A stretch of 64,000 nt of DNA from Collinsella sp. TF06-26 (GTDB taxonomy: Bacteria > Actinomycetota > Coriobacteriia > Coriobacteriales > Coriobacteriaceae): NCBI RefSeq assembly GCF_002232035.1, contig NZ_NKXR01000001.1, forward strand, positions 70,574-134,573. Direction: 5' to 3'. Shown here piece after piece: positions 30,107 to 46,626 of the stretch. The notes under the pieces are model-generated. The model was given only the letters and a program-made list of their open reading frames with translations, ran no database searches and had not been told where the DNA came from. Each line of letters starts with the position of its first letter. The stretch's first letter is position 1. Both the position numbers and the translations under genes were made by a program.

Positions 30107-30118
30107 GGAGGGGAGAGC

Positions 30119-31045
30119 ATGAACAACATCGTACTTGCCGTTCTGCAGGGCGTGGTCGTCATGGCCGTCGCGCCGTTCTTCTCCGGTCTCGGTCGCGTGA
30201 TCCGCGCCAAGATGCACAACCGTCGCGGCCCCAGCATCATGCAAGACTACCGCGACCTGGCCAAGCTCTTTGCGCGCCCCGAGTCCCAGAGCGAGGACGC
30301 GAGCTTTGCGCTGCGCATCATGCCGCCGCTGTTCTTCGCCGTCGCCTTTATGCTCGCGATGGGCTTGCCGCTCTTTACGGCACAAAGCCCCATCCCGGTC
30401 TTTGGTGACGCCATCACCATCATGTATAGCTTGGCGCTCGCCCGCTTCTTCTTCGCCCTCTGCGGTGTGGATTCGTCCAACGCCTACGCCGGTATCGGCG
30501 GCGTTCGCGAGCTGCTCATGAGCGTGCTCATCGAGCCGTCCATGCTGCTGGCGCTGTTTGCCGCCGCCCTGGTGTGCGGCTCCACCGACATCGCCACCAT
30601 GGGTCAGCACATCATGACGGGTGCCGTCGACGCGCCGGTCGCCGTGATCCTCGCCGGCATCGCCTTTGCGATTGCCTGCTACATGGAACTCGGCAAGCTG
30701 CCGTTTGACCAGGCTGAGGCCGAGCAGGAGCTCCAGGAAGGTCCGCTCGCCGAGCTTTCCGGACCGTCGCTTGCGATGGCCAAGCTCGCCATGTCCATGA
30801 AGCAGGTCCTGGTCGTCGCCTGGTTCTGCGCGATCTTCGTCCCCTGGGGCGAGCCCGCGACCGTGGGCATCGCGGCCGTTCTGGGCGCGGCCATCTTCCT
30901 GGTGAAGTGCCTTATCGACTTTGTCGTGTGCGGCGTGATCGAGAACTCCTGCTCGCGCTCGCGTTTTAAGGTGCTCGGCAATCAGACCTGGGCCGTCGTG
31001 GGGATCGCCGTTCTGGCGTTTGTCTTCGTGGTCGTCGGCGTGTAG
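30119..31045 (+). CDS. hyfC: Hydrogenase-4 membrane subunit HyfC (NuoH-like)
   Basis: The 308-residue, roughly eight-helix protein has the NuoH/HycD features RRGPSIMQDYRDLAKL and PFDQAEAEQELQEGP. NuoH-type subunits anchor the hydrophilic arm and lie at the start of the proton path. The start lies 12 bases after hyfB and follows AAGGAGGGGAG. Confidence 0.93.
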   Translation: MNNIVLAVLQGVVVMAVAPFFSGLGRVIRAKMHNRRGPSIMQDYRDLAKLFARPESQSEDASFALRIMPPLFFAVAFMLAMGLPLFTAQSPIPVFGDAITIMYSLALARFFFALCGVDSSNAYAGIGGVRELLMSVLIEPSMLLALFAAALVCGSTDIATMGQHIMTGAVDAPVAVILAGIAFAIACYMELGKLPFDQAEAEQELQEGPLAELSGPSLAMAKLAMSMKQVLVVAWFCAIFVPWGEPATVGIAAVLGAAIFLVKCLIDFVVCGVIENSCSRSRFKVLGNQTWAVVGIAVLAFVFVVVGV

Positions 31046-31060
31046 GAGAAGGGAGAAACA

Positions 31061-32518
31061 ATGTCATTTGCAGTCAGTCTGTCCCTTCTCGGCTTGGTCG
31101 CTATCGCGGCCCCGATGGTGGCCTCGGTGCTCGTCGCCCTGTTCCCCCGTCCGTACGCCAAGTGGTTCAGCGTTTTGGGTGCCGCCGTCTCGACGGTCTG
31201 CACCATCGCCCTCGCCGCGAATTTCGCCGGCGCCGGCATGCCCGACACGCAGGTCCCTCTGATCTCGTTTGGGCAGACCCTCGTCATGGGATTCACCTTC
31301 GATCGCATGAGCACGCTGCTCGCGCCCGCCTTTGTGGGTATCGGCCTGCTTGTCGTGATCTATTCGATTCCCTATATGAGCGAGAATAACCGTGAGCATC
31401 CCGATGCGCCGCGTCGTCGCTTCTACGCGTACCTCGCGACCTTCATCGGCGCCATGGCCGGCCTCGTGTACAGCTCGACCCTTTTGGGCCAGCTCGTGTT
31501 CTTTGAGATCACGGGTGCGTGCTCTTGGGGCCTCATTAGCTACTACATGACGCCTACGGCCAAGAAGGCCGGCATGAAGGCCCTGATCATCACGCATATC
31601 GGTGCGCTCGGCCTGTATCTGGGCGCCGCCATCGTGTTTGCCCACACCGGCACCTTCGCCATTACCGCGATTGCCGGCCTCGATGCCAAGCTCAAGGCTA
31701 TCGTCCTTTTGCTCGTGCTGTTTGCAGCCTGGGCCAAGTCCGCACAGGTTCCCATGTACATGTGGCTGCCTTCGGCCATGGAGGCGCCGACGCCTGTTTC
31801 GGCCTACCTGCATGGCGCCTCGATGGTCAAGGTCGGCGTGTGCGTGTTCGCGCGTGCGCTCGTTTCTGCCGGAGAGGTTCCCGAGATCGTGGGCTGGGTC
31901 GCCATTATCGACGCCATGGTCACTATGCTCTTTGGTTTCCTTATGTACCTGCCGCAAAAGGACATGAAGCGTCTGCTGGCCTTCTCCACGATCGCCCAGC
32001 TCTCCTACGTGTTCTTTGGTCTGGGCCTTTCGGTCTTTGGCAGCCAGCTCGCCTTCGATGGCGCCGTCTGCCACATCTTTAACCACGCCTTCGCGAAGAC
32101 GCTGTTCTTCCTGATCGCCGGTTCGTTCTCCTTTACGCTCGGTACGCGTATGCTGCCCAAGCTTCGCGGCATCGTAAAGAAGTACCCGATCTCGGGCGTG
32201 GGCTTTGGTGTCGCCGCGCTCGCCATTGCCGGCGTGCCGCCCATGAACACGTTCTTCTCGAAGTTCCAGATCATCGCCGGCGGCTTTTCTGTGGGTGCCG
32301 GCAACGTCGCGATTCTGGTGCTCGTGTGCATCATGGTTGCCGAGACCGTCGCCACCTTTGCCTGGTTCCTTAAGTGGATGGGCTATTGCCTGCCCGGCGA
32401 GCCGAGCGAAGAGGTCGCTGCGGGAGCCCCGCTTCCCCGCGCGATGGCGTTCGTGTTCATCGTGCTCATCATCATGGTCATCGTCAGCGGCCCGCTTTCG
32501 GCCAGCTGGATCGGTTAG
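31061..32518 (+). CDS. hyfD: Hydrogenase-4 membrane subunit HyfD (antiporter-like)
   Basis: The 485-residue protein is a NuoL/M/N-type channel subunit with YMWLPSAMEAPTPVSAYLHG and a long run of hydrophobic helices. Its presence, with HyfE and HyfF, marks the operon as hydrogenase-4 type rather than the simpler hydrogenase-3 (Hyc). More antiporter-like subunits imply greater proton pumping. Spacer 15 bases. Confidence 0.92.
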   Translation: MSFAVSLSLLGLVAIAAPMVASVLVALFPRPYAKWFSVLGAAVSTVCTIALAANFAGAGMPDTQVPLISFGQTLVMGFTFDRMSTLLAPAFVGIGLLVVIYSIPYMSENNREHPDAPRRRFYAYLATFIGAMAGLVYSSTLLGQLVFFEITGACSWGLISYYMTPTAKKAGMKALIITHIGALGLYLGAAIVFAHTGTFAITAIAGLDAKLKAIVLLLVLFAAWAKSAQVPMYMWLPSAMEAPTPVSAYLHGASMVKVGVCVFARALVSAGEVPEIVGWVAIIDAMVTMLFGFLMYLPQKDMKRLLAFSTIAQLSYVFFGLGLSVFGSQLAFDGAVCHIFNHAFAKTLFFLIAGSFSFTLGTRMLPKLRGIVKKYPISGVGFGVAALAIAGVPPMNTFFSKFQIIAGGFSVGAGNVAILVLVCIMVAETVATFAWFLKWMGYCLPGEPSEEVAAGAPLPRAMAFVFIVLIIMVIVSGPLSASWIG

Positions 32519-32531
32519 GAGGTAGAACGAC

Positions 32532-33185
32532 ATGGGTTATTCGATCGTCAACATCCTTGGCGGCCTTCTGATCGTCACGTCCACCATGGTGGTCGTCTCC
32601 AAGAACATCAAACATGCCATCCGCTGGTATGCGGTGCAGTCGCTGGTGCTCGTGGGGCTGCTCGCTACGCTCGGTGTCACCACCGGTGCGCAGGAGCTGC
32701 TTATGTGGGCCGGATCTGCCTTTATCACTAAGGTCGTCCTGGTCCCTTATATCCTCAACCGCGCATACAAGAAGATGGGCGAGCCGAGCGACGCATCGCT
32801 CAAGGCCGGCCTTAAGCCCGCGTGGGCCATTTGCATCATCGCCGTCGAGGTCGCGATCTGCTTTGCCGTCGTGACGCAGATTAGCCTGCCCACGGCCGAG
32901 GTCGCAACGCCTGCGCTCGCCATTAGCTTCGCTCACTTCTTTGTGGGCCTCACCTGCATCATCTCGCAGCGCAACATCATGAAGCAGATCTTTGGATACT
33001 GCCTTATGGAAAACGGCAGCCATGTGACGCTCGCGCTTTTGGCCCCCACCGCTCCCGAGATCATCGAGATCGGTATCGCCACCGACGCCATCTTTGCCGT
33101 CATCATCATGTCCATCGTCGTGCGTCGCATTTGGGACGACTCCCACTCGCTCGATGCGCGCGACCTGTCCGAGCTGAGGGGGTAG
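32532..33185 (+). CDS. hyfE: Hydrogenase-4 membrane subunit HyfE
   Basis: The 217-residue protein matches E. coli HyfE in length (about 216). It has six or so hydrophobic segments and NuoK-like character in its N-terminal part. TAGGAGGT lies ahead of ATG 32532. The gap to hyfF is 3 bases. Confidence 0.9.
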   Translation: MGYSIVNILGGLLIVTSTMVVVSKNIKHAIRWYAVQSLVLVGLLATLGVTTGAQELLMWAGSAFITKVVLVPYILNRAYKKMGEPSDASLKAGLKPAWAICIIAVEVAICFAVVTQISLPTAEVATPALAISFAHFFVGLTCIISQRNIMKQIFGYCLMENGSHVTLALLAPTAPEIIEIGIATDAIFAVIIMSIVVRRIWDDSHSLDARDLSELRG

Positions 33186-33188
33186 TCC

Positions 33189-34748
33189 ATGGAAACGTTG
33201 ATTCTCGCCCTGCTCGCGACTCCTTTGGTGTTCTCGCTGGTCATGGCGTTTTTGCCCAAGAACACATCCTATAACGTGTTTGCCGGTCTCAACCTGGTCT
33301 CCGTCGCAGCCGTCCTGGTGCTGTCGATTATGACGGCCGGTGACGTCCTTATGAGCGGCGACACCGCGAGCGCTCTTGACCTGTGGTTTCACCTCGATTC
33401 GCTGGGCGCCATCTTTGTGCTGCTCATCGGCTTTATCGGTTTTCTTACGGGGCTGTTCTCGCTGCCCTATGTAAAGGCCGATATCGAGGAGGGCTCCATG
33501 CCCGCCGAGCGCGCCAAGCAGTATTTTGCGCTGTTTAGCCTGTTTGTGTTCACCATGCTGCTCGCGTGCCTGTCCAACAACATGATCCTCACGTGGGCCG
33601 CCGTGGAGGCAACCACGCTTTCCACCGTGTTCCTCGTGGGTATCTACAAGAACAAGACGGCCCTCGAGGCTTCTTGGAAGTATGCGATGGTCTGCACCGC
33701 CGGCGTGGCCTTCGGCCTGTTCGGTACGCTGCTGATCTACGCCAACGCCGCCGACGTGATTCCCAATGCCCACGAGGCCGCATTCCTGTCGTGCGTGCTG
33801 CCGTATGCCGATCAGTTCGACCCGACGCTCATGCGCCTCGCCTTTGCGTTTGTCGTGATCGGTTTTGGCACCAAGGCCGGCCTGTTCCCCATGCACACTT
33901 GGCTGCCCGATGCCCACTCCCAGGCCCCGAGCCCTGTCTCGGCCCTGCTCTCGGGCGTGCTGCTTAAGTGCGCCATGCTTGTGATCATGCGCTTCTACGG
34001 CTTTACTATCCAAGCCGTGGGCGCCGAGTATCCGCAAATTTTGCTGCTGATCGTCGGCACGCTGTCCATTTTGGTGGCGGCACTTTCGATGTTTCGCCAG
34101 GACGACCTCAAGCGCCGCTTTGCGTACTCGTCTGTGGAGAACGTGGGCGTTATCGCCCTGTGCCTGGGTATCGGTGGCCCGCTGGGTATCGCCGCGGCCC
34201 TGCTGCACTGCGTGTTCCACGGCTTTACCAAGACGCTTGCCTTCTGCGTTTCCGGCAACATCCAGCACGCCTTTGGCACGCGTAGCCTGGCCAAGATCCA
34301 GGGCGTCGTCGAGGTTGCCCCCGCAACCGCCGCGCTCGCCATCCTGGCGCTGCTCGGTCTTGCCGCCTTCCCGCCCTTTGGCATGTTTATCTCCGAGTTC
34401 CTGACTTTTGTCGCCGGTGTTACCGCCGGTCCCATGTGGCTGGTCGTCGTGGTCGCCCTCGGTCTTACCGTGGCCATCTCCGCGCTCACCCGCATCGCAC
34501 TCAAGTCGGTATTCGGCCATGCGCCCCAGGGCATGGGCAAGCATGAGGCCCCGGTGCTCATGCTTATCCCCGAAATCATCCTGGCTGTCATGATCTTGTG
34601 GTTTGGCATCGCCACCCCGCTGCCCCTCGTGCACGGTGTGGAGACTGCGACCGGCATCGTGCTCGAGCAGAGCACCGAGGAACTTCACGCGACGCCGATG
34701 TACCGCGCTGTGTTCGGTACCGAGACCGCTCAGAGCGAGGTGGAGTAA
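33189..34748 (+). CDS. hyfF: Hydrogenase-4 membrane subunit HyfF (antiporter-like)
   Basis: The 519-residue protein is the third antiporter-like subunit, with MHTWLPDAHSQAPSPVSALL and RRFAYSSVENVGVIAL. The operon thus has HyfB, HyfD and HyfF channel subunits. The ribosome site GAGGGGG overlaps the end of hyfE, so translation is coupled. Confidence 0.93.
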   Translation: METLILALLATPLVFSLVMAFLPKNTSYNVFAGLNLVSVAAVLVLSIMTAGDVLMSGDTASALDLWFHLDSLGAIFVLLIGFIGFLTGLFSLPYVKADIEEGSMPAERAKQYFALFSLFVFTMLLACLSNNMILTWAAVEATTLSTVFLVGIYKNKTALEASWKYAMVCTAGVAFGLFGTLLIYANAADVIPNAHEAAFLSCVLPYADQFDPTLMRLAFAFVVIGFGTKAGLFPMHTWLPDAHSQAPSPVSALLSGVLLKCAMLVIMRFYGFTIQAVGAEYPQILLLIVGTLSILVAALSMFRQDDLKRRFAYSSVENVGVIALCLGIGGPLGIAAALLHCVFHGFTKTLAFCVSGNIQHAFGTRSLAKIQGVVEVAPATAALAILALLGLAAFPPFGMFISEFLTFVAGVTAGPMWLVVVVALGLTVAISALTRIALKSVFGHAPQGMGKHEAPVLMLIPEIILAVMILWFGIATPLPLVHGVETATGIVLEQSTEELHATPMYRAVFGTETAQSEVE

Positions 34749-34751
34749 CGA

Positions 34752-36524
34752 ATGATTGAAACTGAGAACAAGGTGTATGCCCGTCGCTGCGAGAGCCATG
34801 TCGAGGCCCTGCGCCGCGCCGTTCCGGGCTGCATCGAGAAGGTCGAGTGGCAGTGCGAGGACCAGCTGACGATTACCGTCAAGCAGGACAAGCTGCCCGA
34901 GGCCGTCCACTACCTGTATTACGAGCGTTACGGCTGGATTCCCGTGATCATCGGCAACGATGAGCGCAGTCTGTGCGGCCGTTACGCTGTGTACTACGTC
35001 ATTTCCATGGAGGGGGAGGACCCCGGCTGGGTGACCGTGCGCACCGAGGTCGATCCCGCCAAGATGACGTTCCCGTCCGTGACGCCGTTCGTCCCCGCCT
35101 GCGTGTGGGGCGAGCGCGAGCTTCGCGACATGTTCGGCCTGATCCCTAAGGGTCTGCCCGACCGTCGCCGCCTGGTGCTTCCCGATGACTGGCCCAGCGG
35201 TCTGTATCCGCTGCGCAAGGACTCCATGGACTACCGCTTCCGTCCCGCTCCCGCGAGCGACATGGAAAACTACGAGTTCTTGGCCGACACTAAGGGCAAG
35301 GAGACGACGCTTGTCCCCATGGGCCCGTTGCACATTACCTCCGACGAGCCCGGCCACTTCCGCCTGTTCGTCGAGGGCGAGACGATCGTCGACGCCGACT
35401 ACCGTCTGTTCTACGTGCACCGCGGCATGGAGAAGGTCGCCGAGACGCGCCTGAACTATGATGCCGTCACGTTCCTTGCCGACCGCATCTGCGGCATCTG
35501 CGGCTGCGCCCACTCGGTGGCCTATGCCGAGGCCGTCGAGCGCGCCCAGGGCATTCATGTTCCGCCGCGCGCCCAGTACATCCGCGCTATCATGCTCGAG
35601 GTCGAGCGCCTGCACTCGCATCTGCTCAACATTGGCCTGGCGTCGCACTACACGGGCTTCGACTCCGGCTTCCAGCAGTTCTTCCGCGTTCGCGAGAAGT
35701 CCATGGACCTGGCCGAGAAGCTTTCCGGTCACCGCAAGACCTACGGTCTCAACGTGATCGGCGGCGTGCGTCGCGACATTTTGGCCGAGCAGAAGCTCTC
35801 CACGCTCACGACCATCCACCAGCTGCGCTCCGAGGTCCAGGAGCTCGTCGACGTCTTGCTCTCCACGCCCAACTTCATTGAGCGTACGAGCGGCATCGGC
35901 ATCTTGGATCGCAAGATCGCACGCGACTTCTCGCCGGTCGGCCCGCTCATGCGTGGCTCGGGCTATGCCCGCGACGTGCGCTTTGACCACCCCTTCGACG
36001 GCTACGCCGATCCGGACGTCCAAAAGATGCACGCCGCCACGGCCGACACCTGCGATGCCTTCGGCCGTACCGCCGTTCGCATCCAGGAGGTCTACGATTC
36101 GATCGACATGATCGAGACCATGCTCGAGAACTGCCCGTCGGGCCCCATCCTCACCACGGATTGGGAGTACACCCCGCACAAGTACGCCATCGGCGCCACC
36201 GAGGCGCCGCGCGGCGAGGACGTGCACTGGGCGATGCTCGGCAACAACCAGAAGTGCTACCGCTGGCGCGCCAAGGCCGCCACGTACAGCAACTGGCCGG
36301 TCCTGCGCTACATGTTCCGCGGCAACACCGTGGGCGACGCGGCGCTGATCGTCGGCTCGCTCGACCCGTGCTACTCCTGCACCGACCGCGTGACGGTGAC
36401 CGATGTCGCCGCCAAGCGCGACCACGTGCTCGACAAGGAGCAGTTCGAGAACGTCTGGCGCGACAAGTCGCCGCTTGCGGGCGAGGGCACCATGGCCGCT
36501 CCGCTCGATGAGGAGGCGCTCTAA
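34752..36524 (+). CDS. hyfG: [NiFe] hydrogenase large subunit HyfG (NuoC-NuoD fusion)
   Basis: The 590-residue protein has an N-terminal NuoC-like domain (about 1-170, including WGERELRDMFGLIPKGLPDR) and the hydrogenase large subunit. The active-site cysteines are in RICGICG (Cys247 and Cys250) and DPCYSC (Cys540 and Cys543). About 44 residues follow the last cysteine. Such a C-terminal tail is removed by the HycI protease after nickel insertion, and a HycI gene lies in this operon. It evolves H2 from electrons supplied by the iron-sulfur chain. Confidence 0.96.
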   Translation: MIETENKVYARRCESHVEALRRAVPGCIEKVEWQCEDQLTITVKQDKLPEAVHYLYYERYGWIPVIIGNDERSLCGRYAVYYVISMEGEDPGWVTVRTEVDPAKMTFPSVTPFVPACVWGERELRDMFGLIPKGLPDRRRLVLPDDWPSGLYPLRKDSMDYRFRPAPASDMENYEFLADTKGKETTLVPMGPLHITSDEPGHFRLFVEGETIVDADYRLFYVHRGMEKVAETRLNYDAVTFLADRICGICGCAHSVAYAEAVERAQGIHVPPRAQYIRAIMLEVERLHSHLLNIGLASHYTGFDSGFQQFFRVREKSMDLAEKLSGHRKTYGLNVIGGVRRDILAEQKLSTLTTIHQLRSEVQELVDVLLSTPNFIERTSGIGILDRKIARDFSPVGPLMRGSGYARDVRFDHPFDGYADPDVQKMHAATADTCDAFGRTAVRIQEVYDSIDMIETMLENCPSGPILTTDWEYTPHKYAIGATEAPRGEDVHWAMLGNNQKCYRWRAKAATYSNWPVLRYMFRGNTVGDAALIVGSLDPCYSCTDRVTVTDVAAKRDHVLDKEQFENVWRDKSPLAGEGTMAAPLDEEAL

Positions 36525-36525
36525 T

Positions 36526-37242
36526 ATGCTGAAGCTTTGGAAGGTTAACGCCAAGGCCGGAGACGCGACGGTCAAGTACCCGTTTGCGCCGTTCCCCACC
36601 AACAAGGACATGCGCGGCAAGCCCGAGCACAACGCGGAGCTCTGCATCGCCTGCGGTGCCTGCGGCGTGGCGTGCCCGGCCGATGCCATTCGCATGGACA
36701 CCGACCTTGCGGCCGATACCATCACCTGGTCGATCGACTACGGTCGCTGCATCTTCTGCGGCCGCTGCGAGGAAGCCTGCCCCATGGAGGCCATCAAGCT
36801 CACCGAGGAGTTTGAGCTGGCTGTTATGAGCAAGGACGACCTCACCAGCAAGAGCGTCTATACGCTCGAGCACTGCTCGCGTTGCGGCAAGCCGTTTGCC
36901 CCGCACAAGGAGATCGACTACGCCAAGCGCCTGCTGCAAAAGTCCGGCGGCATGGAGGCTATCCAGGCCGCCCGTACCGTCGGTATGTGCCAGGAGTGCA
37001 AGCGCGAGCTCGACGCCCTGCGCGCCGCCTCGGCCGTCAAGACCGGCAACGCGCGCGGCATGGCTGCCAACGAGACGCTTGCGTCCGGCGAGCCCCAGGG
37101 CCCCGGCATGGAGTATCTGGGCGGCCACGGCGTGAACCCGGAGTATATCGACCGCGAGATCAACCCCGATGCGCCCGAGATTCCCGCCGGTCCTGCGCCG
37201 GTCGAGGGCATCATCATGGATTTTGATACGAAGGAGGAGTAA
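36526..37242 (+). CDS. hyfH: Hydrogenase-4 ferredoxin subunit HyfH (NuoI-like)
   Basis: The 238-residue protein contains two [4Fe-4S] motifs, CIACGACGVAC and CIFCGRCEEAC, as in NuoI/HycF, plus CSRCGKPF and CQEC that may form an extra metal site. It passes electrons to the small subunit. The ATG at 36526 starts one base after the hyfG stop. Its C-terminal 60 residues are Pro/Gly/Glu-rich. Confidence 0.92.
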   Translation: MLKLWKVNAKAGDATVKYPFAPFPTNKDMRGKPEHNAELCIACGACGVACPADAIRMDTDLAADTITWSIDYGRCIFCGRCEEACPMEAIKLTEEFELAVMSKDDLTSKSVYTLEHCSRCGKPFAPHKEIDYAKRLLQKSGGMEAIQAARTVGMCQECKRELDALRAASAVKTGNARGMAANETLASGEPQGPGMEYLGGHGVNPEYIDREINPDAPEIPAGPAPVEGIIMDFDTKEE

Positions 37243-37244
37243 CC

Positions 37245-38027
37245 ATGGCCGAACCCACGCTTTTGCCCGAGCGGCTTCAGTACCGCCCGACCAAGATCGA
37301 GCTCGACGAGAGCATCGAGAAGGCCAAGGCGACCCTTCTTAAGAAGATCAAGCGCTCGGTGTACGTCTACCGTGTTGACTGCGGCGGCTGCAACGGCTGC
37401 GAGATCGAGATCTTTGGTTCCATCACGCCCGTCTTCGACGTCGAGCGCTTTGGCATCAAGGTCGTGCCCTCGCCCCGTCACGCCGATGTGCTGCTGTACA
37501 CCGGCGCCGTGACGCGTGCCATGCGCATGCCGGCCCTGCGCGCCTTTGAGGCCGCGCCCGATCCCAAGATCGTGGTGTCCTATGGCGCGTGCGGCTGCAC
37601 CGGTGGCATCTTCTACGACAACTACTGCGTCTGGGGCGGCACGGACAAGATTCTGCCCGTCGATGTCTACATCCCCGGCTGCCCGCCCAGCCCTGCGCAG
37701 ACCATCTACGGCTTTGCTATGGCGCTCGGCCTGCTGGACCAAAAGCTCCATGCCGAGACCACGGTGGAGGCCGCCGGCGAGCAGGCTGATATCCTGCACC
37801 CCGGCGTGCCGTACAAGCTGCGTGTTGCCATCGAGCGCGAGGCTCGCGCCATGAGCGGCTACCGTTATGGCCGCGACCTGGCTAACGAGTTTATGGATAC
37901 GCTCGAGGGCGCGCCCAAGGGCGATATCCGCGGTGCCATGGCGCTGCTCATCGACAAGCAGGACGATCCGCGCCGCGTCGAGGTGTACTCGGCGCTGCAG
38001 GATCTGGTGCTGGCCGGAGGTCGCTAG
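37245..38027 (+). CDS. hyfI: [NiFe] hydrogenase small subunit HyfI (NuoB-like)
   Basis: This 260-residue protein binds the proximal cluster. CGGCNGCEIE (Cys46-Cys52 region), YGACGCTGG and PGCPPSPAQTIYG are the NuoB/HycG ligands. It pairs with HyfG at the membrane interface. GAAGGAGG precedes the ATG. Confidence 0.95.
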   Translation: MAEPTLLPERLQYRPTKIELDESIEKAKATLLKKIKRSVYVYRVDCGGCNGCEIEIFGSITPVFDVERFGIKVVPSPRHADVLLYTGAVTRAMRMPALRAFEAAPDPKIVVSYGACGCTGGIFYDNYCVWGGTDKILPVDVYIPGCPPSPAQTIYGFAMALGLLDQKLHAETTVEAAGEQADILHPGVPYKLRVAIEREARAMSGYRYGRDLANEFMDTLEGAPKGDIRGAMALLIDKQDDPRRVEVYSALQDLVLAGGR

Positions 38028-38609
38028 ATGGAGCTCACGGACCGCTCTGGTTACTTTGCGGGCCCCGGCATGCTCGGCGGCTCCTTTGGCGATGCCTCGC
38101 GCGCAAGCGACGAGGCTGCCGAGGGCGTCGCCGACCCTTGCCTGGGCCATGCGCCCGACCAGGTGGTCTTTTACGAGCTCACGCGTAAGTTTGTGGAGAC
38201 CGAGGAAGACGTTCCCCAGGAGGCCTGCGACGTGCTGTACTACACGCTCGCCGTGGGCCACCACACCGGCGTGCTCGACTGCTTTGAGCCGCGCCTGTCG
38301 GTGCCGGTGGATGTGTTCTATACGCTTATCGACGCGCTGCCGGAGGGGGAGGCCAAGACCAAGTTTGAGGCCATCCGCTCCTTTGGTGAGTGCCAGCTCG
38401 ACAAGGCGGCGGTGCCGTCGCTGCTCGAGGCCTGCGATGCGCTGCTCGACGAGCGCGGTTTTCGCGGGTCGGCCAAGGCCGGCATCTCGGTGTTCGACGA
38501 CGACTTTGGCTTACATGCCCAGCAGGTCGCGTTTCTGATGAAGTTTCGCGATCTGGTGGAGCGCGTGCGCGATGTGTCGGGCGTGTATCTGACGGGGAGG
38601 TTGCAGTAA
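38028..38609 (+). CDS. hyfJ: Formate hydrogenlyase maturation protein HyfJ/HycH
   Basis: The 193-residue soluble protein matches the HycH/HyfJ family in position and in blocks such as VVFYELTRKF, CDVLYYTLAVGHHTG and FDDDFGLHAQQVAF. HycH is needed for processing of the large subunit in E. coli. The ATG begins directly after the hyfI stop, and the stop overlaps the protease ATG by one base. Confidence 0.85.
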   Translation: MELTDRSGYFAGPGMLGGSFGDASRASDEAAEGVADPCLGHAPDQVVFYELTRKFVETEEDVPQEACDVLYYTLAVGHHTGVLDCFEPRLSVPVDVFYTLIDALPEGEAKTKFEAIRSFGECQLDKAAVPSLLEACDALLDERGFRGSAKAGISVFDDDFGLHAQQVAFLMKFRDLVERVRDVSGVYLTGRLQ

Positions 38610-39112
38610 TGGGTTGCGTTGTGGACGGACGTGTGAACGGCGCCCCGTTTGCGGGCATTGTGCTCACGGCGGGAAGCGTGTTGCGTGCCGACGATGCCGC
38701 CGGCCCCGTGCTCTCCAAAAAGATGGAGGACGCGCCCATTGCCGGTTGGTACACCATCGACGGTGGCCAAACGCCCGAGGATGACATCATCGAGGTCAAG
38801 CGCGAGCGTCCGCCTCGCCTGGTCTTGGTCGATGCCGCCGACATGGCGCTGCCCGTCGGGTCCATCCGTTTGCTCGACAAGCGCGATGTGGCCCGCAAGT
38901 CGATGTTCACCACGCATTCGCTTCCCTTGTCGATTCTGATCGAAGAGATTGAGCAATCGTGCGATGATATCGTCTTCGTCGGGATTCAGCCGGGCGACAC
39001 GGAGTTCTATAACCCCATGTCCCCGGAAGTCTTTGACGCCGTCGACGCCGTGTACGACGCCGTGGCCGCCAACGACTTTTCCCACTTTGTCCGCTTGGGG
39101 CAAGAGCAATAG
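38609..39112 (+). CDS. hycI: Hydrogenase maturation endopeptidase HycI
   Basis: The 167-residue protein belongs to the HybD/HycI fold. VLTAGSVLRADDAAGPVL carries the first metal-binding acidic residue and LVLVDAADMAL the second. It removes the C-terminal tail of HyfG once nickel is inserted. It is a little longer than E. coli HycI (156). Confidence 0.9.
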   Translation: MGCVVDGRVNGAPFAGIVLTAGSVLRADDAAGPVLSKKMEDAPIAGWYTIDGGQTPEDDIIEVKRERPPRLVLVDAADMALPVGSIRLLDKRDVARKSMFTTHSLPLSILIEEIEQSCDDIVFVGIQPGDTEFYNPMSPEVFDAVDAVYDAVAANDFSHFVRLGQEQ

Positions 39113-39151: not shown

Positions 39152-39991
39152 ATGGCAGATTCCAATGTGGAGTATCCCGCTCCCGATTGCCTGGCGCCCG
39201 CCGCGATCGAGGCCAAGACCGAGGCCGCCGGCGTGACCAAGGCCAACCTGCCGGTCGCTAAGGCCTTTCTGTTGGCAATGTTCGCCGGTGCGTTCATTGC
39301 CTTCGGCGGCCTGTTCTTTACGGTGTTTTTGAGCGACAACACGCTGGGCTGGGGTGCCCAGCGCGTCGTGGGCGGCCTGTGCTTTTGCCTGGGCCTGGTG
39401 CTGGTACTGGTGTGCGGCGCCGAGCTGTTTACCGGCAATTCGCTTATGGTCTGTGCGCTCAAGAGCAAAAAGATCACCCTGGCTCAGATGCTCAAGGCCT
39501 GGGTCGTCGTGTGGGTCGGCAATTTTGTCGGTGCCCTGTTCATCGTCTTTTTGGTGTACATGGCCGGCATCTATAAGCTCAACGGCGAGGCGGTCGCCAA
39601 TTCCATGGTGAGCGTCGCCGCTGGCAAGGTGACGATCGACTGGGTGACGATCTTCTTCCGCGGCATCCTGTGCAACATCTTTGTATGCCTGGCCGTGTGG
39701 ATCGGTACCGCCGGCAAGACCGTGGTCGATAAGGTTGTGGGCATTCTGCTGCCCATCGCTGCCTTTGTGGCCTGCGGTTTTGAGCACTGTGTCGCCAACA
39801 TGTACTTTTTGCCCATGGGTGCCGTGATGCACGCGTGCGGCTATGGTGCCGACGTCGCCGGCGCCGATGCGCTCAACGTTGCGGGCATTGCGTTTAACCT
39901 GTCCGCTGCCACGCTGGGCAACATTGTGGGCGGTGCGGTTCTGGTCGCGCTCGGCTACTGGTTTATCTACGCCAAGAAGTCCGAGGCGTAA
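39152..39991 (+). CDS. focA: Formate channel FocA (formate/nitrite transporter family)
   Basis: The 279-residue pentameric channel protein has six membrane helices, with the family blocks GAFIAFGGLFF, GAELFTGNSLM, GNFVGAL and GFEHCVANMYF. It moves formate across the membrane and so controls supply to FdhF. Location after the hydrogenase operon supports formate over nitrite. The ATG at 39152 follows GGAAAGAAG; an upstream ATG in frame at 39119 has no site. A terminator follows. Confidence 0.93.
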   Translation: MADSNVEYPAPDCLAPAAIEAKTEAAGVTKANLPVAKAFLLAMFAGAFIAFGGLFFTVFLSDNTLGWGAQRVVGGLCFCLGLVLVLVCGAELFTGNSLMVCALKSKKITLAQMLKAWVVVWVGNFVGALFIVFLVYMAGIYKLNGEAVANSMVSVAAGKVTIDWVTIFFRGILCNIFVCLAVWIGTAGKTVVDKVVGILLPIAAFVACGFEHCVANMYFLPMGAVMHACGYGADVAGADALNVAGIAFNLSAATLGNIVGGAVLVALGYWFIYAKKSEA

Positions 39992-40050: not shown

Positions 40051-40113
40051 GGTCTGGGGCTCGTTGCCGGGCTGTTGACCTGTTGTGTTTGGCTGGTGAA
40101 AGGGGTAATCGAG

Positions 40114-42231
40114 ATGGCATCTGCTGTGAAGCGTGACGGTCGCGCCGTGGTGACCACATGCGGGGGATGCTATGCCGATTGCGCCTTTGCGGCCCGCGTT
40201 GAGGACGGTCGCGTGGTGGCCGAGTTGCCGGTGCCGGGGCATCCATGCGCGGCGCGTGCCCTGTGCGCCCGCGGGCGGCATCGCCTGGACATGCCGTTTG
40301 ACGAGCGCGATCGCATCGTGCACCCCATGCGCCGACGAGCTGATGGCTCGGGGTTCGATGCGATTTCGTGGGACGAGGCGTTCGCGCAGATCGCGGCGCG
40401 CCTTGGGTGGATTATTGACGAGCGTGGTCCGCGTGCGCTGGGCATGACGCTCGGTGTGCCCTCGTTCGACCGCTACTGGGCGTATCGCTTTATGCATGCG
40501 CTGGGCTCGCCCAACGTATACGGAGCCGACGGTGCCTGCGAGGTAAGCCGACTTACCGGCTGGGAGCACAGCCTGGGCTACAGTCCCGCCTCCGACCTGG
40601 CACATACCGATTGCATCATGTATTTGGGGCGTTCCATTGTCGATTCGTCGACGATGGGGGCCGTTGATGCGCTCAACGATGCCCGTCGCCGTGGGGCGAA
40701 GATTATCGTGGTTGACCCCCGGCGCAGCGGCTCGGCTGCACTTGCCGACCGCTGGCTGCGCGTGCGCCCGGGCTGCGACTTGGCGCTGCTGTTGGGTATT
40801 GCGCATGTCTTGATTGCCGAGGACCTGTATGACCACGAGTTCGTGACCCGCTATACCACGGGTTTTGACGAGCTGGCGCAGGCGGCCCGTGCTTGGACGC
40901 CCGAGTGGGCCGAGTCGATGTGCGACGTGCCGGCCGCAGAGATTGTCGCCACGGCGCGCGATCTGGCTGCGGCCGCGCCTGCCGCCGTGGTCGATGCGGG
41001 CTTTCATGGTGGCATCGGTATCGCGTATGCCAATAGCACCCAGACCGCGCGCGCTATCTGCTTGGTCGATGTGCTGCTGGGCTGTATCGGGCATGCGGGC
41101 GGCGCGCTCAATCCGCCCACGCCGCTTGTGTTGGGCGACCTCGATCCCACGCGCTTTGCGACGCCGCCGGTGCCGCGTGGGCCCAAGCTGGGGTCCGAGC
41201 GCTATCCACTGGTCGATCCGGTGCGCGGCCTGTGCACGACCATCGGCCAGTCGATACTGGCCGGCGATTTGCGTGGGCTCATCGTCTATGCCAGTAACCC
41301 CGGTGCGGGCTATGGCAACGCCGGGGCGTGGCTATCGATTCTGGAACAACTTGACCTGCTCGTGACGATTGATATTCGCTGGTCCGAGACGGCGCGTGCT
41401 TCTGACTTCGTGCTGCCCGACGTGACGTATCTGGAGGCCGACCGCGGTGTGGGCACAGTCGTGGGCGTCAACGATGCGCGGGTGTTCTACCGCAACGCCG
41501 TGCTGCCTGTGCGGCATGACGACACACGTCCCGGTCGGGAGATTTTTGCCGGTCTGGCGCATGCGTGTGGCGCGGGCGAGTACTTCCAGTTTACATCTGA
41601 CGATCTGGCGGCTGCCCAGGTGGCGCCTTTTGGGATCAATCTGGACGAGCTCAAGGAGCGCGGCTGGGCCGACACGGGTGCTGCGTTGCCGTCGCGTACG
41701 GGCGAGCCGGTGATTCCCTTGAACGGCGGCAGGATCGCGCTGGCAAGCGACGTATGGGAACGCGCCGGTCTGGGTCGCGTGCCCAACTGGATCGCTCCCA
41801 TGGTGGAGCCTGGCCCGGGGATGTTTCGCCTCATTAGCGGCAACCGTCCCTTTGAGTCGCATACCTCGCGAAGGCTTGCAGCCCAAGGTGCCGCTGAGGC
41901 TGGGTCGGACCTGGATGCCGTGCAGATGAATGCCGATGCTGCTGCGCACATGGGCATCGCCGACGGCGAGATCGTCGAACTCGTGAGCGATATGGGCCGC
42001 GACCGCGTGCGTGTGGAGACGACGCCGTATCTGCATCCGGCGTGCATCTTCACCTCGGCCGCCCCCGGTGGGCGTTCGTTTGGCGCCGATGCCGGTGGCG
42101 CTCAAGGCTTGGGCGTGGGCCCGCTCGACCATACGCCGTTGCGTTGGGACCCGTTGACGGGTGCCGCGCTCACCCAGGAAAACGCCGTTCGCGTGGAAAA
42201 GATCGTCGCGTGCGGGGATAATGACGAGTAA
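40114..42231 (+). CDS. Lone molybdopterin oxidoreductase of the DMSO reductase family
   Basis: The 705-residue protein has an N-terminal [4Fe-4S] site (CGGCYADC, then CAARALCARG), the molybdopterin domains (SWDEAFAQIAARLG, IIVVDPRRSGSAALAD) and a C-terminal guanine-dinucleotide-binding domain. The Mo ligand is probably the Cys in GADGACEVSRLTG, as in polysulfide/thiosulfate-type enzymes. There is no Tat signal, so it is cytosolic. No ferredoxin, membrane or chaperone subunit is adjacent. It lies 52 bases upstream of selA. The substrate is unknown. ATG 40114 follows GAAAGGGG; an earlier in-frame ATG (40075) is less likely. Confidence 0.85.
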   Translation: MASAVKRDGRAVVTTCGGCYADCAFAARVEDGRVVAELPVPGHPCAARALCARGRHRLDMPFDERDRIVHPMRRRADGSGFDAISWDEAFAQIAARLGWIIDERGPRALGMTLGVPSFDRYWAYRFMHALGSPNVYGADGACEVSRLTGWEHSLGYSPASDLAHTDCIMYLGRSIVDSSTMGAVDALNDARRRGAKIIVVDPRRSGSAALADRWLRVRPGCDLALLLGIAHVLIAEDLYDHEFVTRYTTGFDELAQAARAWTPEWAESMCDVPAAEIVATARDLAAAAPAAVVDAGFHGGIGIAYANSTQTARAICLVDVLLGCIGHAGGALNPPTPLVLGDLDPTRFATPPVPRGPKLGSERYPLVDPVRGLCTTIGQSILAGDLRGLIVYASNPGAGYGNAGAWLSILEQLDLLVTIDIRWSETARASDFVLPDVTYLEADRGVGTVVGVNDARVFYRNAVLPVRHDDTRPGREIFAGLAHACGAGEYFQFTSDDLAAAQVAPFGINLDELKERGWADTGAALPSRTGEPVIPLNGGRIALASDVWERAGLGRVPNWIAPMVEPGPGMFRLISGNRPFESHTSRRLAAQGAAEAGSDLDAVQMNADAAAHMGIADGEIVELVSDMGRDRVRVETTPYLHPACIFTSAAPGGRSFGADAGGAQGLGVGPLDHTPLRWDPLTGAALTQENAVRVEKIVACGDNDE

Positions 42232-42283: not shown

Positions 42284-43741
42284 ATGAGCGATAGCCAGAA
42301 CATGTCCGATGAGGTGCGCGCCCGCCTGCGCGCCATTCCTTCCGTCAATGAGCTGCTTGCCGAGTGGCCGGTTGTGAAGGCGGCGGGGGAGACCTGCGAC
42401 GCGGTGGTCCATGCTGCCGTGACGGCCGAGCTCGACGAGGAGCGCGCCGCCATTCGCGCCGGTGCCGCCCCGCGTTCCAAGCGCGAGCTGGCCTCGGCCA
42501 TCGAGTGGCGTGCGCATCGCTCCGCGCTGCCGAGCCTGCGCCCCGCCGTCAACGCCACGGGTGTGGTCATCCATACCAATCTGGGCCGTGCCCCGCTCGC
42601 GGAGTCGGCGGCAAAGGCAGTGGCCGAGGTTGCGCGCGGGTATAGCACGCTCGAGTACAGCGTCGACACCTGTTCGCGCGGGTCGCGCAAGGAGCACGCC
42701 GCGCAACTGATCCGCTCGCTCACCGGTGCCGAGGACGCGCTGGTCGTCAACAACAACGCCGCCGCGGTGCTGTTGGTGCTTGCCACCCATGCCGCGGGCA
42801 AAGAGGTCATCGTGAGCCGTGGCGAGCTCGTCGAGATCGGCGGCAGCTTCCGTATCCCCGACGTCATGGAGGCCTCGGGCGCCAAACTCGTCGAGGTCGG
42901 GGCCACCAACCGCACGCACCTGTCGGACTACGAGCGCGCCATCACGCCCGATACGGCCATGATCCTCAAGGTCCATCCTTCCAACTATCGCATCGAGGGC
43001 TTTCACGAGGAGGTGGGCTCTCGGGAGCTTGCGGCGCTTGCTCACAAGCATGGCCTGCTGTTCTACGAGGACCAGGGCTCGGGCGCGCTGTTGCCCGACG
43101 ACATCTTGGTGCGCGGCGGCGAAGAAACCACGCCGGCTTCGGTTTCGGCAGGGCTCGATCTGGTGTCGTGCTCGGGCGATAAACTGCTCGGTGCCGCACA
43201 GGCGGGCATTATCATGGGTCGTCGCGATCTGGTCCAGGCCTGTGGGTCGCATCCGCTTATGCGCGCCCTGCGCCCGGGCAAGTTGGCGCTCACGGCGCTC
43301 GAGGCCACGCTGCGCATCTACATGGACGGGGCGGACGTGGCCCATCGCGAGGTGCCGGTGCTCAGCATGCTTACGCTGCCGCAGGCCCATTTGGAACGAC
43401 GTGCCCGCAAGCTGCGCGATCGTATGGTCTCCGGGCTCGATAAGGCCGGTTGCCCGTGCGCCGTTCAGGTGGAGATCGTCGAGGAATCGTCGACGCCCGG
43501 TGGCGGCTCGCTGCCTACCGTGGAGCTGCCCACGATGTGCGTTGCCGTGCGTCTTGTTGACGAGCGCCTGACGGTCGATGCGCTCAAGCGCTCTCTTGTC
43601 CAGGACTTCGACACGCCGGTCGTCACGCGAACCTCGCACGATCGCATTTTGTTTGACGTCCGTACGCTCGTGGGCGATCGCGATATCGAGACGGCGGCAT
43701 CGACGCTCGTCGCGTGCGTTGAGAAGGCGATTGTTCGATGA
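42284..43741 (+). CDS. selA: L-seryl-tRNA(Sec) selenium transferase SelA
   Basis: This 485-residue PLP enzyme converts Ser-tRNA(Sec) to Sec-tRNA(Sec) using selenophosphate from SelD. It has the tRNA-binding N-terminal domain (IPSVNELLAEWP), NATGVVIHTNLGRAPL, and the PLP lysine in SCSGDKLLGAAQAG (Lys300). GAAAGG precedes the ATG by 8 bases. It overlaps selB by 4 bases. Confidence 0.97.
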   Translation: MSDSQNMSDEVRARLRAIPSVNELLAEWPVVKAAGETCDAVVHAAVTAELDEERAAIRAGAAPRSKRELASAIEWRAHRSALPSLRPAVNATGVVIHTNLGRAPLAESAAKAVAEVARGYSTLEYSVDTCSRGSRKEHAAQLIRSLTGAEDALVVNNNAAAVLLVLATHAAGKEVIVSRGELVEIGGSFRIPDVMEASGAKLVEVGATNRTHLSDYERAITPDTAMILKVHPSNYRIEGFHEEVGSRELAALAHKHGLLFYEDQGSGALLPDDILVRGGEETTPASVSAGLDLVSCSGDKLLGAAQAGIIMGRRDLVQACGSHPLMRALRPGKLALTALEATLRIYMDGADVAHREVPVLSMLTLPQAHLERRARKLRDRMVSGLDKAGCPCAVQVEIVEESSTPGGGSLPTVELPTMCVAVRLVDERLTVDALKRSLVQDFDTPVVTRTSHDRILFDVRTLVGDRDIETAASTLVACVEKAIVR

Positions 43742-45705
43742 GTGAGGTTCAGGCGCTGGTGGAGTGTCCCGTTATCGTTGGCACGGCGGGCCACGTTGAC
43801 CACGGTAAGTCGGCACTGATCGAGGCGCTGACCGGCAAGAATCCCGACCGTCTGGAGGTTGAACGCCGTCGCGGTATGACCGTGGAGCTTGGCTTTGGCG
43901 AGCTGGCGCTGCCGAGTGGCAAGATCGTCGGCCTGGTCGACGTGCCGGGCCACGCGCATTACCTGCGCGCTATGGTGCAGGGCGCCACGGGTATCGACGT
44001 GGCCGTGCTGGTGGTTTCGGCCGTCGAGGGCGTGATGCCGCAGACCCGCGAGCACGTGCATGTGCTGGAGCTGCTGGGCATCACACACATGGTGGTCGCG
44101 CTGACGATGTGCGACCTGGCCGACGCCGAGATGACTGAGCTTGCCGAGCTCGATGTCGATGATTTTTTGTCGGACACCGTGTTTGCGGGCGTGCCGATCG
44201 TGCCCGTGTCGTCCAAGACCGGTGCGGGAATCGATGACCTGCTGGCTGCGCTCGACGAGCAGGTTGTCGCTTGCTGGGGTGCCTGCCGTGCCCGTGCCGA
44301 GCTCACCGATGCCGCACCGCGTCTGCCCATCGACCGCTGCTTTACGATCAAGGGCGCCGGTACCGTGGTGACGGGAACGTTGCACGATGCGCCGGTTGCG
44401 GTGGGCGATGAGCTCGTCGCGCTGCCGTCGCGTACGGTCTGTCGCGTGCGCGGGATTCAGGTGCATGGCGATACGCCGCGGGCATTGCCCGGTCAGCGTG
44501 TGGCGCTCAACTTGGTGGGCGATGCCGTCGCCGCGCTCGATCGCGGAGAGATGCTCGGCGTGCAGGGTCGCTTTGGCCAGACGATGCGCTTTATGATGGT
44601 GTTCACTTACCTGGGCCGCGAGGGTGCCAAGCCGCGCGTGCTCGAGTCGGGCGCGCGCGTGCATGTGATGGCGGGTACGGCCGAGGTTGTCGGTCGCATC
44701 ATGCTCATGGAGGGCGAGGCCCCCATGGCGGTGGGCGAGACCCGTACCGTACAGGTGCGCTTGGAGGAGCCGCTGCCGCTGCGAGCCGGAGACCATGCCG
44801 TGGTGCTGTCCTATTCGCCCGTGATGCTTATTGGCGGCGGGCGCGTGCTGCTTTCGCGCTGCCGTCGCTCGCGCGAGCTTTCTGCCGGCGAGCGCGCACT
44901 GTTTGCGGCGCTCGAGTCCGGCGATATCGCGGGCGGTGTGGGCGCTTGGCTGGCGCTGCAGATGCTGCCGGTTACGGCGGTTGATGTTGCCGTGGCTTTG
45001 GATCTTGGTGTCGGCGAGGTCGATGCCGCACTGCGCGGGTTGGTGGCGCAGGGCTCCGTTCGCAAGCTTGCCGCGGGCGATGCGGACCTCTTGGCGGACG
45101 CCGCGGTGCTCGACGGCGCGATGGATGCCCTGGCGGCGACCCTGTCAGCCATGCATGCGGCGGCTCCCAAGGAGACGGGCTTTACGCCCGGCGCCGTTGC
45201 CCATGCTGCGTGGCCTGCCGCTGATGATACGGTTGCCGCAGCCCTGATTTCCGAGGGCTGCTCGCGCGGCGTGTGTGCCTCCGAGGGCGCCGAGATGTTC
45301 GACCCGCACTCCGCTGCCGCCGCGGCGCGTGTGGTGCGCGAGGCCTGCGAACGTATCGTTGCCTTGCTGGATGAAGCCGGCCTCGATGCACCGACGTTGC
45401 CCGAGATGGGCGAGCGGTTGCAGCTCGATCGCGACACCATGACGCGTGCCCTGCGCGAGCTTTCGCTCAACCGTTCCATCGTGAAGGTCGAGCGCGACGT
45501 TGCCTTGTCCGCCACCGTGGAGTCGCACGCGCGCGAGCTTGTCGCCGCCGCTATCGCCGATGCCGGCGGCGCTGCCACCACGAGCGTGCTGCGCGAGGCC
45601 CTGGGTGTGTCGCGCAAACGCGCCATCAGCATCTTGGAGCACCTGGATGCCGTGCGCTTTACGGTGCTCGACAAGGAAGCCGGCGGCCTGAGGTCCCTAC
45701 GCTAG
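43738..45705 (+). CDS. selB: Selenocysteine-specific elongation factor SelB
   Basis: The 655-residue GTPase delivers Sec-tRNA(Sec) to UGA codons by binding the SECIS hairpin. The G1 motif is GHVDHGKS (18-25), G3 is DVPGH, and the C-terminal third has the winged-helix domains that bind SECIS RNA. It is coupled to selA by ATGA overlap. The selC tRNA follows 36 bases after its stop, giving a selA-selB-selC unit. Confidence 0.97.
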   Translation: MSEVQALVECPVIVGTAGHVDHGKSALIEALTGKNPDRLEVERRRGMTVELGFGELALPSGKIVGLVDVPGHAHYLRAMVQGATGIDVAVLVVSAVEGVMPQTREHVHVLELLGITHMVVALTMCDLADAEMTELAELDVDDFLSDTVFAGVPIVPVSSKTGAGIDDLLAALDEQVVACWGACRARAELTDAAPRLPIDRCFTIKGAGTVVTGTLHDAPVAVGDELVALPSRTVCRVRGIQVHGDTPRALPGQRVALNLVGDAVAALDRGEMLGVQGRFGQTMRFMMVFTYLGREGAKPRVLESGARVHVMAGTAEVVGRIMLMEGEAPMAVGETRTVQVRLEEPLPLRAGDHAVVLSYSPVMLIGGGRVLLSRCRRSRELSAGERALFAALESGDIAGGVGAWLALQMLPVTAVDVAVALDLGVGEVDAALRGLVAQGSVRKLAAGDADLLADAAVLDGAMDALAATLSAMHAAAPKETGFTPGAVAHAAWPAADDTVAAALISEGCSRGVCASEGAEMFDPHSAAAAARVVREACERIVALLDEAGLDAPTLPEMGERLQLDRDTMTRALRELSLNRSIVKVERDVALSATVESHARELVAAAIADAGGAATTSVLREALGVSRKRAISILEHLDAVRFTVLDKEAGGLRSLR

Positions 45706-45741: not shown

Positions 45742-45838
45742 GGGAACGGATGGGCTCCGGTGGGCTCCGCGGTCCTCAAAACCGTTGCGAGGCGTGCAAA
45801 ACGTCTTGGATGTGTTCGATTCACATACGTTCCCGCCA
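45742..45838 (+). tRNA. selC: Selenocysteine tRNA (anticodon TCA), selC
   Basis: The 97-base tRNA has acceptor GGGAACG/CGTTCCC with encoded CCA, a 6-bp D stem GGGCTC/GGGCTC around the 4-base loop CGGT as in other bacterial tRNA(Sec), anticodon stem GCGGT/ACCGT, anticodon TCA in loop CCTCAAA, a long variable arm AGGCGT/ACGTCT and T arm ATGTG/CACAT. Position 33 reads C rather than the nearly universal U. The eighth acceptor pair would be G-A. A TAAAAT box (45724-45729) may be the -10 element. Confidence 0.95.
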
Positions 45839-45846
45839 TACACTAC

Positions 45847-45903
45847 CAGCGCTTTTGTGCTCGCGGTCTTGCTGCGTGCCGCAAAGGCGCTGTTTTGTTT
45901 TTG
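45847..45903 (+). terminator. Terminator of selC
   Basis: CAGCGCTTTTG (45847-45857) pairs with CAAAGGCGCTG (45882-45892, one G-U) and is followed by TTTTGTTTTTG. It begins 9 bases after the tRNA CCA. Confidence 0.8.
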
Positions 45904-45993
45904 CACGGGTTTGCCGTGCCGTCCGCTTTATCGGCGACGGTATTTGGCTTCGCGTGCCGGGTTTTGAGCATGCCGATGGAGGTGTTTTGCCGT

Positions 45994-46626
45994 ATGACTA
46001 CCGTAAGACGTGCCGATCTTTCTTGTGTCGTCCAGGCGGGCGGGCTGTCGTCGCGTATGGGCTGCGATAAGGCGCGCATGGCGTTTTGCGGCGAACCGCT
46101 CATCGAGCGCGTGCTGGGCCGGCTGGCGTCAGTTGCCGGCGAGTTGGTCGTGACGACGTCGCGTCCCAGCGAGCTTGTCTATCTTGAGGAGCACGCGTTT
46201 GGCGGTCTGGTGCCGCGTGTGGTGGCAGATATTGAAGGGTCGGCGGGCGCCATGCGCGGCATCGCGAGCTCGTTGGCTGCGGCTCGATTGCCGAACGTGG
46301 CGATCGTTGCCTGCGATATGCCGTTTGTCTCGCCGGAACTCATCGGCGCGCTTGCCGATCGTGTTGAGGCCGAGGCGCTCGATGTGTGCGTGCCGCGCGA
46401 GGAGCGGGGGATTGAGCCGCTTTGCGCTGTCTGGCGCCGTGACGCGTGCGCGCCGGTTGCCCAAGAGCTGCTCGCCTGCGACCGCCAACGCATTCGCTGC
46501 CTGATCAATCGCGTTCAAGCTGGTTATATGGATGAGCCGCAGATCGTTCAGGCCGCGGGCTCCACGCTCTGCTTCGAGAACGTCAATACGCCCGAGGAGT
46601 TTGCGGCGGCCGAGTTGCTTGCCTAG
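45994..46626 (+). CDS. mobA: Molybdenum cofactor guanylyltransferase MobA (or MobA-like MocA)
   Basis: The 210-residue nucleotidyltransferase attaches a nucleotide to molybdopterin. Motifs: QAGGLSSRMGCDKARM (GTP/CTP-binding loop), VACDMPFVSPELI (metal-binding Asp) and ENVNTPEEF. The NTPEE ending favours MobA, needed by FdhF. A MocA role for the molybdenum hydroxylase downstream is an alternative. The ATG at 45994 is chosen for GGAGG 11 bases upstream; an in-frame ATG at 45970 lacks a site. Confidence 0.85.
   Translation: MTTVRRADLSCVVQAGGLSSRMGCDKARMAFCGEPLIERVLGRLASVAGELVVTTSRPSELVYLEEHAFGGLVPRVVADIEGSAGAMRGIASSLAAARLPNVAIVACDMPFVSPELIGALADRVEAEALDVCVPREERGIEPLCAVWRRDACAPVAQELLACDRQRIRCLINRVQAGYMDEPQIVQAAGSTLCFENVNTPEEFAAAELLA

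Follow-up and report, generated by a model that had tools for sequence, protein, structure and literature searches.

The gene between focA and selA in Collinsella sp. TF06-26 encodes a conserved and constrained oxidoreductase of the PsrA/PhsA branch that has no export signal and is genetically tied to the formate hydrogenlyase (FHL) operon, both in Collinsella and in one genome of another family (G056). We coined the name MopX for it in the present analysis. MopX is a real, somewhat unusual variant of its enzyme group. In the open-access literature a paper on this gene was not found. Our reading of the whole, which we put forward tentatively and rate a little below an even chance, is that MopX is a soluble reductase, a cytosolic offshoot of the polysulfide and thiosulfate type of reductases, that would use formate-derived electrons in the FHL setting.

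The MopX gene and its locus

The window, i.e. the whole stretch of 64,000 nucleotides that was analysed, contains the following features.

6314..7225, plus strand: selD match
24582..25100, plus strand: HycB/HydN-like 4Fe-4S protein, hycB1 (HydN model 135.7 bits, cut-off 260)
25177..27399, plus strand: fdhF, formate dehydrogenase H, with selenocysteine at the in-frame TGA 25594-25596
27478..28095, plus strand: HycB/HyfA-like Fe-S protein, hycB2
28088..36524, plus strand: hyfB, hyfC, hyfD, hyfE, hyfF and hyfG, the FHL membrane arm and the NiFe large subunit
36526..38027, plus strand: hyfH and hyfI, Fe-S subunit and NiFe small subunit
38028..39112, plus strand: hycH-like gene and hycI maturation protease (HycI 129.8 bits, above the cut-off of 119.1; HycH 112.7 bits, below the cut-off of 145)
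39152..39991, plus strand: focA-type formate channel, the immediate upstream neighbour of MopX (FocA model 237.7 bits, cut-off 290.1)
40114..42231, plus strand: MopX, orphan PsrA/PhsA-branch Mo/W-bisPGD oxidoreductase of 705 amino acids, intact open reading frame
42284..43741, plus strand: selA, starting 52 bases downstream of MopX
43738..45705, plus strand: selB
45742..45838, plus strand: tRNA-Sec
45880..46626, plus strand: mobA-like molybdenum cofactor guanylyltransferase

The labels hyfB to hyfG follow position and resemblance and are presumed; hyfH and hyfI are likewise presumed, and selA and selB are taken to be such by resemblance. The order on the plus strand is hycB1, the selenocysteine-containing fdhF, hycB2, hyfB to hyfI, hycH, hycI, focA, MopX, selA, selB, tRNA-Sec and mobA. 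The first-pass annotation had placed MopX right before selA, and the gap of 52 bases agrees with this. When the plus strand was scanned, sites resembling promoters or terminators were absent both from the gap between focA and MopX (122 bases) and from that between MopX and selA. The scan favours co-transcription weakly, since the terminator count of the region was near the level of shuffled sequence.

The reading frame of MopX opens with the ATG at 40114 and runs without interruption to a stop codon whose last base is 42231. An in-frame TTG at 40075 is a possible alternative start. Because the residues upstream of the ATG vary or are missing in the orthologues and the beginning MAS... is retained in the close ones, the ATG was preferred. 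Three Pfam models exceeded their gathering scores: Molybdopterin (PF00384, 1.6e-27), Molydop_binding (PF01568, 3.2e-9) and Molybdop_Fe4S4 (PF04879, 5.4e-5). MopX belongs to the Mo/W-bisPGD (DMSO reductase) family, with C16, C19, C23 and C51 as Fe-S ligands and C142 as the probable Cys ligand of Mo or W. All five cysteines are invariant in 9 MopX orthologues, 9 Tat-type homologues and PhsA, and the metal-binding residues of MopX stay invariant down to 53-54% identity. The models and these residues bear out the earlier description of a molybdopterin oxidoreductase with an Fe-S site and a probable Cys ligand. The median dN/dS of MopX was 0.109 (120 pairs from 16 sequences; selA 0.060), a sign of purifying selection which indicates that MopX is a working gene. 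When a phage collection was searched with MopX, 35 records were returned, all of them distant matches and none reaching 80% query coverage. The AlphaFold model, made from a shallow alignment, was too poor for use as evidence (mean pLDDT 55.2).

Lineage, export and active site

The top NCBIfam model for MopX was PhsA with 297 bits, against 218 bits for Fdh-alpha and 157 bits for the nitrate reductases NasC/NarB. The cut-off of the PhsA model is 694 bits, far above this score, so MopX is not PhsA itself. The same model matched all 10 members of our alignment A3, from which L026 (in-frame stop in the stretch named) and L031 (same flag) were left out. In the PDB, the best match was the Thermus thiosulfate (polysulfide) reductase with 218 bits (399 with the A3 profile); acetylene hydratase gave 155 bits (295 with the profile) and FdhH 145 bits.

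Following the check that the first-pass annotation had proposed, MopX was placed by phylogeny within the DMSO reductase family. Of the 29 sequences gathered, two truncated ones (other_L088_11 and other_L085_0) were removed beforehand, leaving 27 rows that included 9 of the 21 collected MopX sequences. The 9 MopX rows formed one clade (support 100/100) with the Tat-type protein of G336 as its sister (100/99). All 18 MopX and Tat rows grouped together at 99/98 and were joined by PhsA, also at 99/98, and the rows of the acetylene hydratase (AH) type, DmsA, FdhF and NapA fell outside this group. The program warned of long branches (NapA, PhsA, L089_8 and Rhizobium) and of an unusual composition of the MopX rows; the joining of Rhizobium and L089_8, both AH-like by sequence search, may be a long-branch effect. 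The Rhizobium sp. CB3090 plasmid (L164, 3251-8320) carries an acetylene-hydratase-like molybdoenzyme beside genes for an aldehyde dehydrogenase, a ferredoxin, an FAD/NAD(P)-binding protein and moaA. From the model scores, PDB matches and tree we conclude with good confidence that MopX belongs, in identity and lineage, to the PsrA/PhsA branch. The members of this branch that have been characterised are reductases of sulfur compounds or of selenite.

PsrA, PhsA and SrrA are described as periplasmic and Cys-ligated in two surveys of the family (PMC7331816, PMC10100899). MopX resembles PsrA, PhsA and SrrA (Thermus 2vpw, PhsA) in best sequence match, tree grouping, Cys ligand and four-Cys [4Fe-4S] motif. 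It differs from them in having neither a Tat signal nor PsrB/NrfD partners, in its presumed cytosolic location and in a histidine, His298, in place of the arginine of PhsA and the Tat homologues. Its closest relatives, with 34-41% identity, are PsrABC-like enzymes of Coriobacteriia (G336, G063, G074, G055, G053 and G047), which in contrast are exported. The Tat motif was present in 9 of 9 Tat-type homologues and in none of 21 orthologous MopX sequences. The simplest reading of these sequences is that export was lost in the MopX lineage, and MopX is presumably cytosolic, as the first-pass annotation had described it.

That MopX has no partner subunits, a further claim of the first-pass annotation, also held. 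An NrfD-type gene was not noticed among the genes examined between 24.6 and 52.6 kb of the window, and in the MopX neighbourhoods examined no PsrB- or NrfD-type gene adjoined MopX, whereas the Tat-type homologues of G063 and G074 were each followed by a pair of Fer4 and NrfD genes (2 of 2 pairs scanned). The Tat-type homologues, in turn, did not stand beside focA or FHL in the stretches fetched. The two HycB/HydN-like Fe-S proteins near MopX are part of the FHL operon. We fetched FHL operons lacking a MopX orthologue from 16 genomes (G064, G074, G176, G116, G235, G365, G055, G291, G047, G317, G375, G240, G200, G336, G187 and G205); hycB1 and hycB2 were both present in 15 of them, the operon of G375 being cut by the contig end before hycB1. 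Neither protein is therefore reserved for MopX, and hycB1 was rejected as its private partner.

The active site has features of its own. Position 298 is His in 9 of 9 MopX rows and Arg in the 9 Tat rows and PhsA; this Arg we take to be catalytic in PhsA-type enzymes. At a further 42 positions MopX has a fixed residue that none of the Tat rows shares. Together these differences suggest a substrate site that is changed yet constrained, and the exchange of Arg for His, conserved throughout MopX, speaks against a substrate that is simply that of PhsA.

A substrate of another kind was considered, since the 42 fixed positions would also fit a soluble enzyme that resembles dehydroxylases or hydratases and has an organic substrate. 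The catechol dehydroxylases of Gordonibacter are reported to be soluble and Tat-less, and their group is placed next to acetylene hydratase (PMC7028382), so related gut Actinobacteria do have such Dodh-type enzymes. MopX shares the Cys ligand with this group, AH and Dodh lack export as well, and AH is of similar size. The group lies on a different branch, however, and has Tyr, Ser or Pro where MopX has Asp after the second Fe-S Cys. AH itself is absent from the tree, where the AH-type rows, for which it is the best PDB match (373 and 314 bits), branch outside the 99/98 group of MopX, Tat homologues and PhsA; membership of MopX was rejected. Obvious catabolic genes were not noticed beside MopX either, and we regard a role of this kind as unlikely. 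The assimilatory nitrate reductases NasC/NarB are likewise cytosolic and Cys-ligated, and they can use ferredoxin. Their model scored MopX lower than that of PhsA, and nitrate assimilation genes were not noticed in the part of the window examined.

MopX might instead be a second formate dehydrogenase or a formate-linked oxidase of the FHL operon. Like FdhF it is cytosolic, carries Fe-S and bisPGD and belongs to the same operon; it stands behind focA, follows the presence pattern of FHL (see below) and has FdhF-type homology in its 145 bits to FdhH. R313 of MopX, invariant in the aligned rows, aligns with Arg333 of FdhF. However, MopX has about 28-29% identity to FdhF, lacks selenocysteine and does not group with FdhF in the tree. 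The FdhF pattern of Sec or Cys followed by His is not seen in MopX, where the residue after the Cys ligand is Glu (Gln in G056), and two residues past the fourth Fe-S Cys MopX has Arg, not Lys. With the PhsA model also ahead of Fdh-alpha, a second formate dehydrogenase is highly improbable, and we return to a reductase of the PsrA/PhsA branch.

Co-occurrence with FHL and sel genes

Within the genus, MopX was found in 20 of 43 genomes, and the FHL-type hyfG (above 1,000 bits) occurred in exactly the same 20; other matches of the hyfG search, at about 205-215 bits, were a different protein and were not counted as FHL. The gene selA was present in 22 genomes (19 of the 20 with MopX plus G012, G004 and G006) and selD in 29; G001 lacked selD, and so did G026, an assembly of 72% completeness. 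The Fisher values of 1e-12 for MopX with FHL and 3e-8 for MopX with selA are descriptive only, since the genomes are related and the counts are not independent events. Usually focA precedes MopX, which closes the FHL operon at its 3' end. focA adjoins MopX in 17 of 17 named loci and also in G056. The link to formate metabolism that the first-pass annotation had suggested is thus supported.

The same annotation had offered selenium as the other possible link. MopX could be a cytosolic selenite (or selenate) reductase that feeds SelD and the selenocysteine machinery: it lies immediately before selA in 16 of the 17 named loci, and in the distant genome G048 it is next to tRNA-Sec. The PsrA/PhsA/SrrA lineage, moreover, includes a selenite reductase, as stated in PMC7331816. 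Most telling is the locus of G001, where MopX (75% identical) lies behind focA and the FHL operon has the same order. Its FdhF has no TGA and hence no Sec (L082 7521-9737), and mobA directly follows MopX (L045 10103-11161) at the place where the sister species have selA, selB and tRNA-Sec. selA and selD were undetected in the G001 genome, and tRNA-Sec was absent on the stretches fetched. G001 is a natural conversion, an FHL operon with a TGA-less FdhF, with selA and selD undetected and with mobA behind MopX.

Conversely, three genomes have selA without MopX. G012 lacks the hyf core as well as MopX but retains hycI, focA, selA, selB and tRNA-Sec, genes that lie between and behind the two, a pattern in favour of the tie to FHL. 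In G004 and G006, selA comes next after focA. These loci (L093, L094 and L095 of G012, G004 and G006) keep selA, selB and tRNA-Sec, and no FdhF-like protein was found there at E 1e-8.

In a class sample of 396 genomes, searched with MopX at E up to 1e-150, 22 genomes gave a match; that of G336 is the Tat-type protein, which leaves 21 MopX genomes. FHL was found in 61 genomes of the sample and selA in 170, and each of the two accompanied MopX in 20 of 21 cases. Only 20 of the 170 selA genomes had MopX. Outside the genus, G056 (family f3) has the order hyf-hycI-focA-MopX and an FdhF with TGA, with selA, selB and tRNA-Sec on a different contig from MopX. The orthologue of G056 (L086 9215-11437, minus strand) has a low-complexity insertion after the equivalent of about residue 590, and a long stretch of open frame precedes it. 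G048 shows the order selD-selA-selB-tRNASec-MopX; FHL was not found there at E 1e-130, nor was a close FdhF. On the minus strand of the same G048 contig (L085 2725-8818) there is a Tat-bearing, FdnG-like formate-dehydrogenase-like gene with an in-frame TGA. With it are genes for a Fer4 protein and for a protein of the cytochrome b type, and another gene resembling fdhE; fdnG and fdhE are our own labels here, fdhE without a model hit. Each of the three kinds of arrangement observed thus has a formate dehydrogenase in the vicinity of MopX, and in most genomes sel genes are close by as well.

The sel genes also adjoin FHL operons that have no MopX: selA is beside the operon in G235, G240 and G205, and in G176 the distance is about 5 kb. 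The proximity of sel and FHL genes therefore requires only that FdhF is a selenoprotein. In G336, the FHL-operon FdhF (L151 3941-6112) lacks TGA though selA is in the genome. The proposed selenium link thus appears mostly secondary: MopX stands before selA in 16 of 17 loci and a place beside sel genes recurs once outside the genus, in the sel-only neighbourhood of G048, but G001 keeps MopX with selA and selD undetected, which contradicts an accessory found only with sel genes. Lack of a conserved link to sel genes, which the first-pass annotation had named as a refutation, is thus borne out only by half. Selenium supply was rejected as the main role, and as an explanation of MopX we consider it improbable.

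FHL, for its part, does not require MopX, since 41 of the 61 FHL genomes lack it. MopX does not have the general presence in FHL operons expected of a core FHL subunit, being found in 20 of 61. In addition, G002 has a MopX that is frameshifted into two frames with a net one-base length difference (L047 8001-10114 / L096 17016-19198), and the neighbouring FHL and sel genes appear intact. MopX might then be a passenger, a dispensable or decaying gene of an FHL-sel island. The dN/dS of 0.109, the metal-binding residues that persist to 53-54% identity and the retention of MopX in three differently arranged loci speak against this, and we give it very little weight.

A possible outlet for formate electrons

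The soluble reductase reading can be put as follows. The ancestor of MopX probably had a Tat signal and PsrB/NrfD-type partners and lost both, which the tree and the neighbourhoods support. The place of MopX after focA, closing the FHL operon, would then have become fixed, and MopX is probably co-transcribed with this operon. Electrons from formate via FdhF, or from hydrogen with the system run backwards, may reach the [4Fe-4S] cluster of MopX by way of a HycB-like Fe-S protein belonging to FHL, or of a free ferredoxin. The Cys-ligated Mo/W centre would reduce a small cytosolic acceptor; judged by lineage, polysulfide, thiosulfate or a related oxyanion is a first guess. Sequence evidence naming the acceptor or a docking partner was not found.

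Several observations stand against an FHL-linked mechanism. These are the 41 FHL genomes without MopX, the operons examined that already have both HycB-like proteins with no subunit reserved for MopX, the retention of MopX in G048 without FHL, and the frameshifted MopX of G002 beside an apparently intact FHL. A bolder version is that MopX is a second catalytic head of FHL, which would dock in the cytosol, on the Fe-S arm formed by HycB-like protein, and switch the complex between H2 evolution and the reduction of sulfur or another acceptor. We regard such a docked head as rather unlikely. If true, Collinsella could get rid of electrons from formate with no hydrogen being made, or could reduce the acceptor at the expense of hydrogen.

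Formate hydrogenlyases are reported in Coriobacteraceae in PMC12578642, and the legend of a figure there, on how gut isolates grow and produce H2, names C. aerofaciens. A cytosolic, partnerless PsrA/PhsA branch tied to FHL, in a genus that is common in the human gut, would give formate electrons a new outlet. This would matter for how much hydrogen, and possibly sulfide, is produced there.

Two other features of the window were seen. The region 49720-52551 encodes a single xanthine-dehydrogenase-like protein of 943 residues that joins the 2Fe-2S and Mo-binding parts (TIGR03313 530.6 bits, cut-off 1101.9), and the region 9480-21113 contains an open reading frame of 3877 residues.
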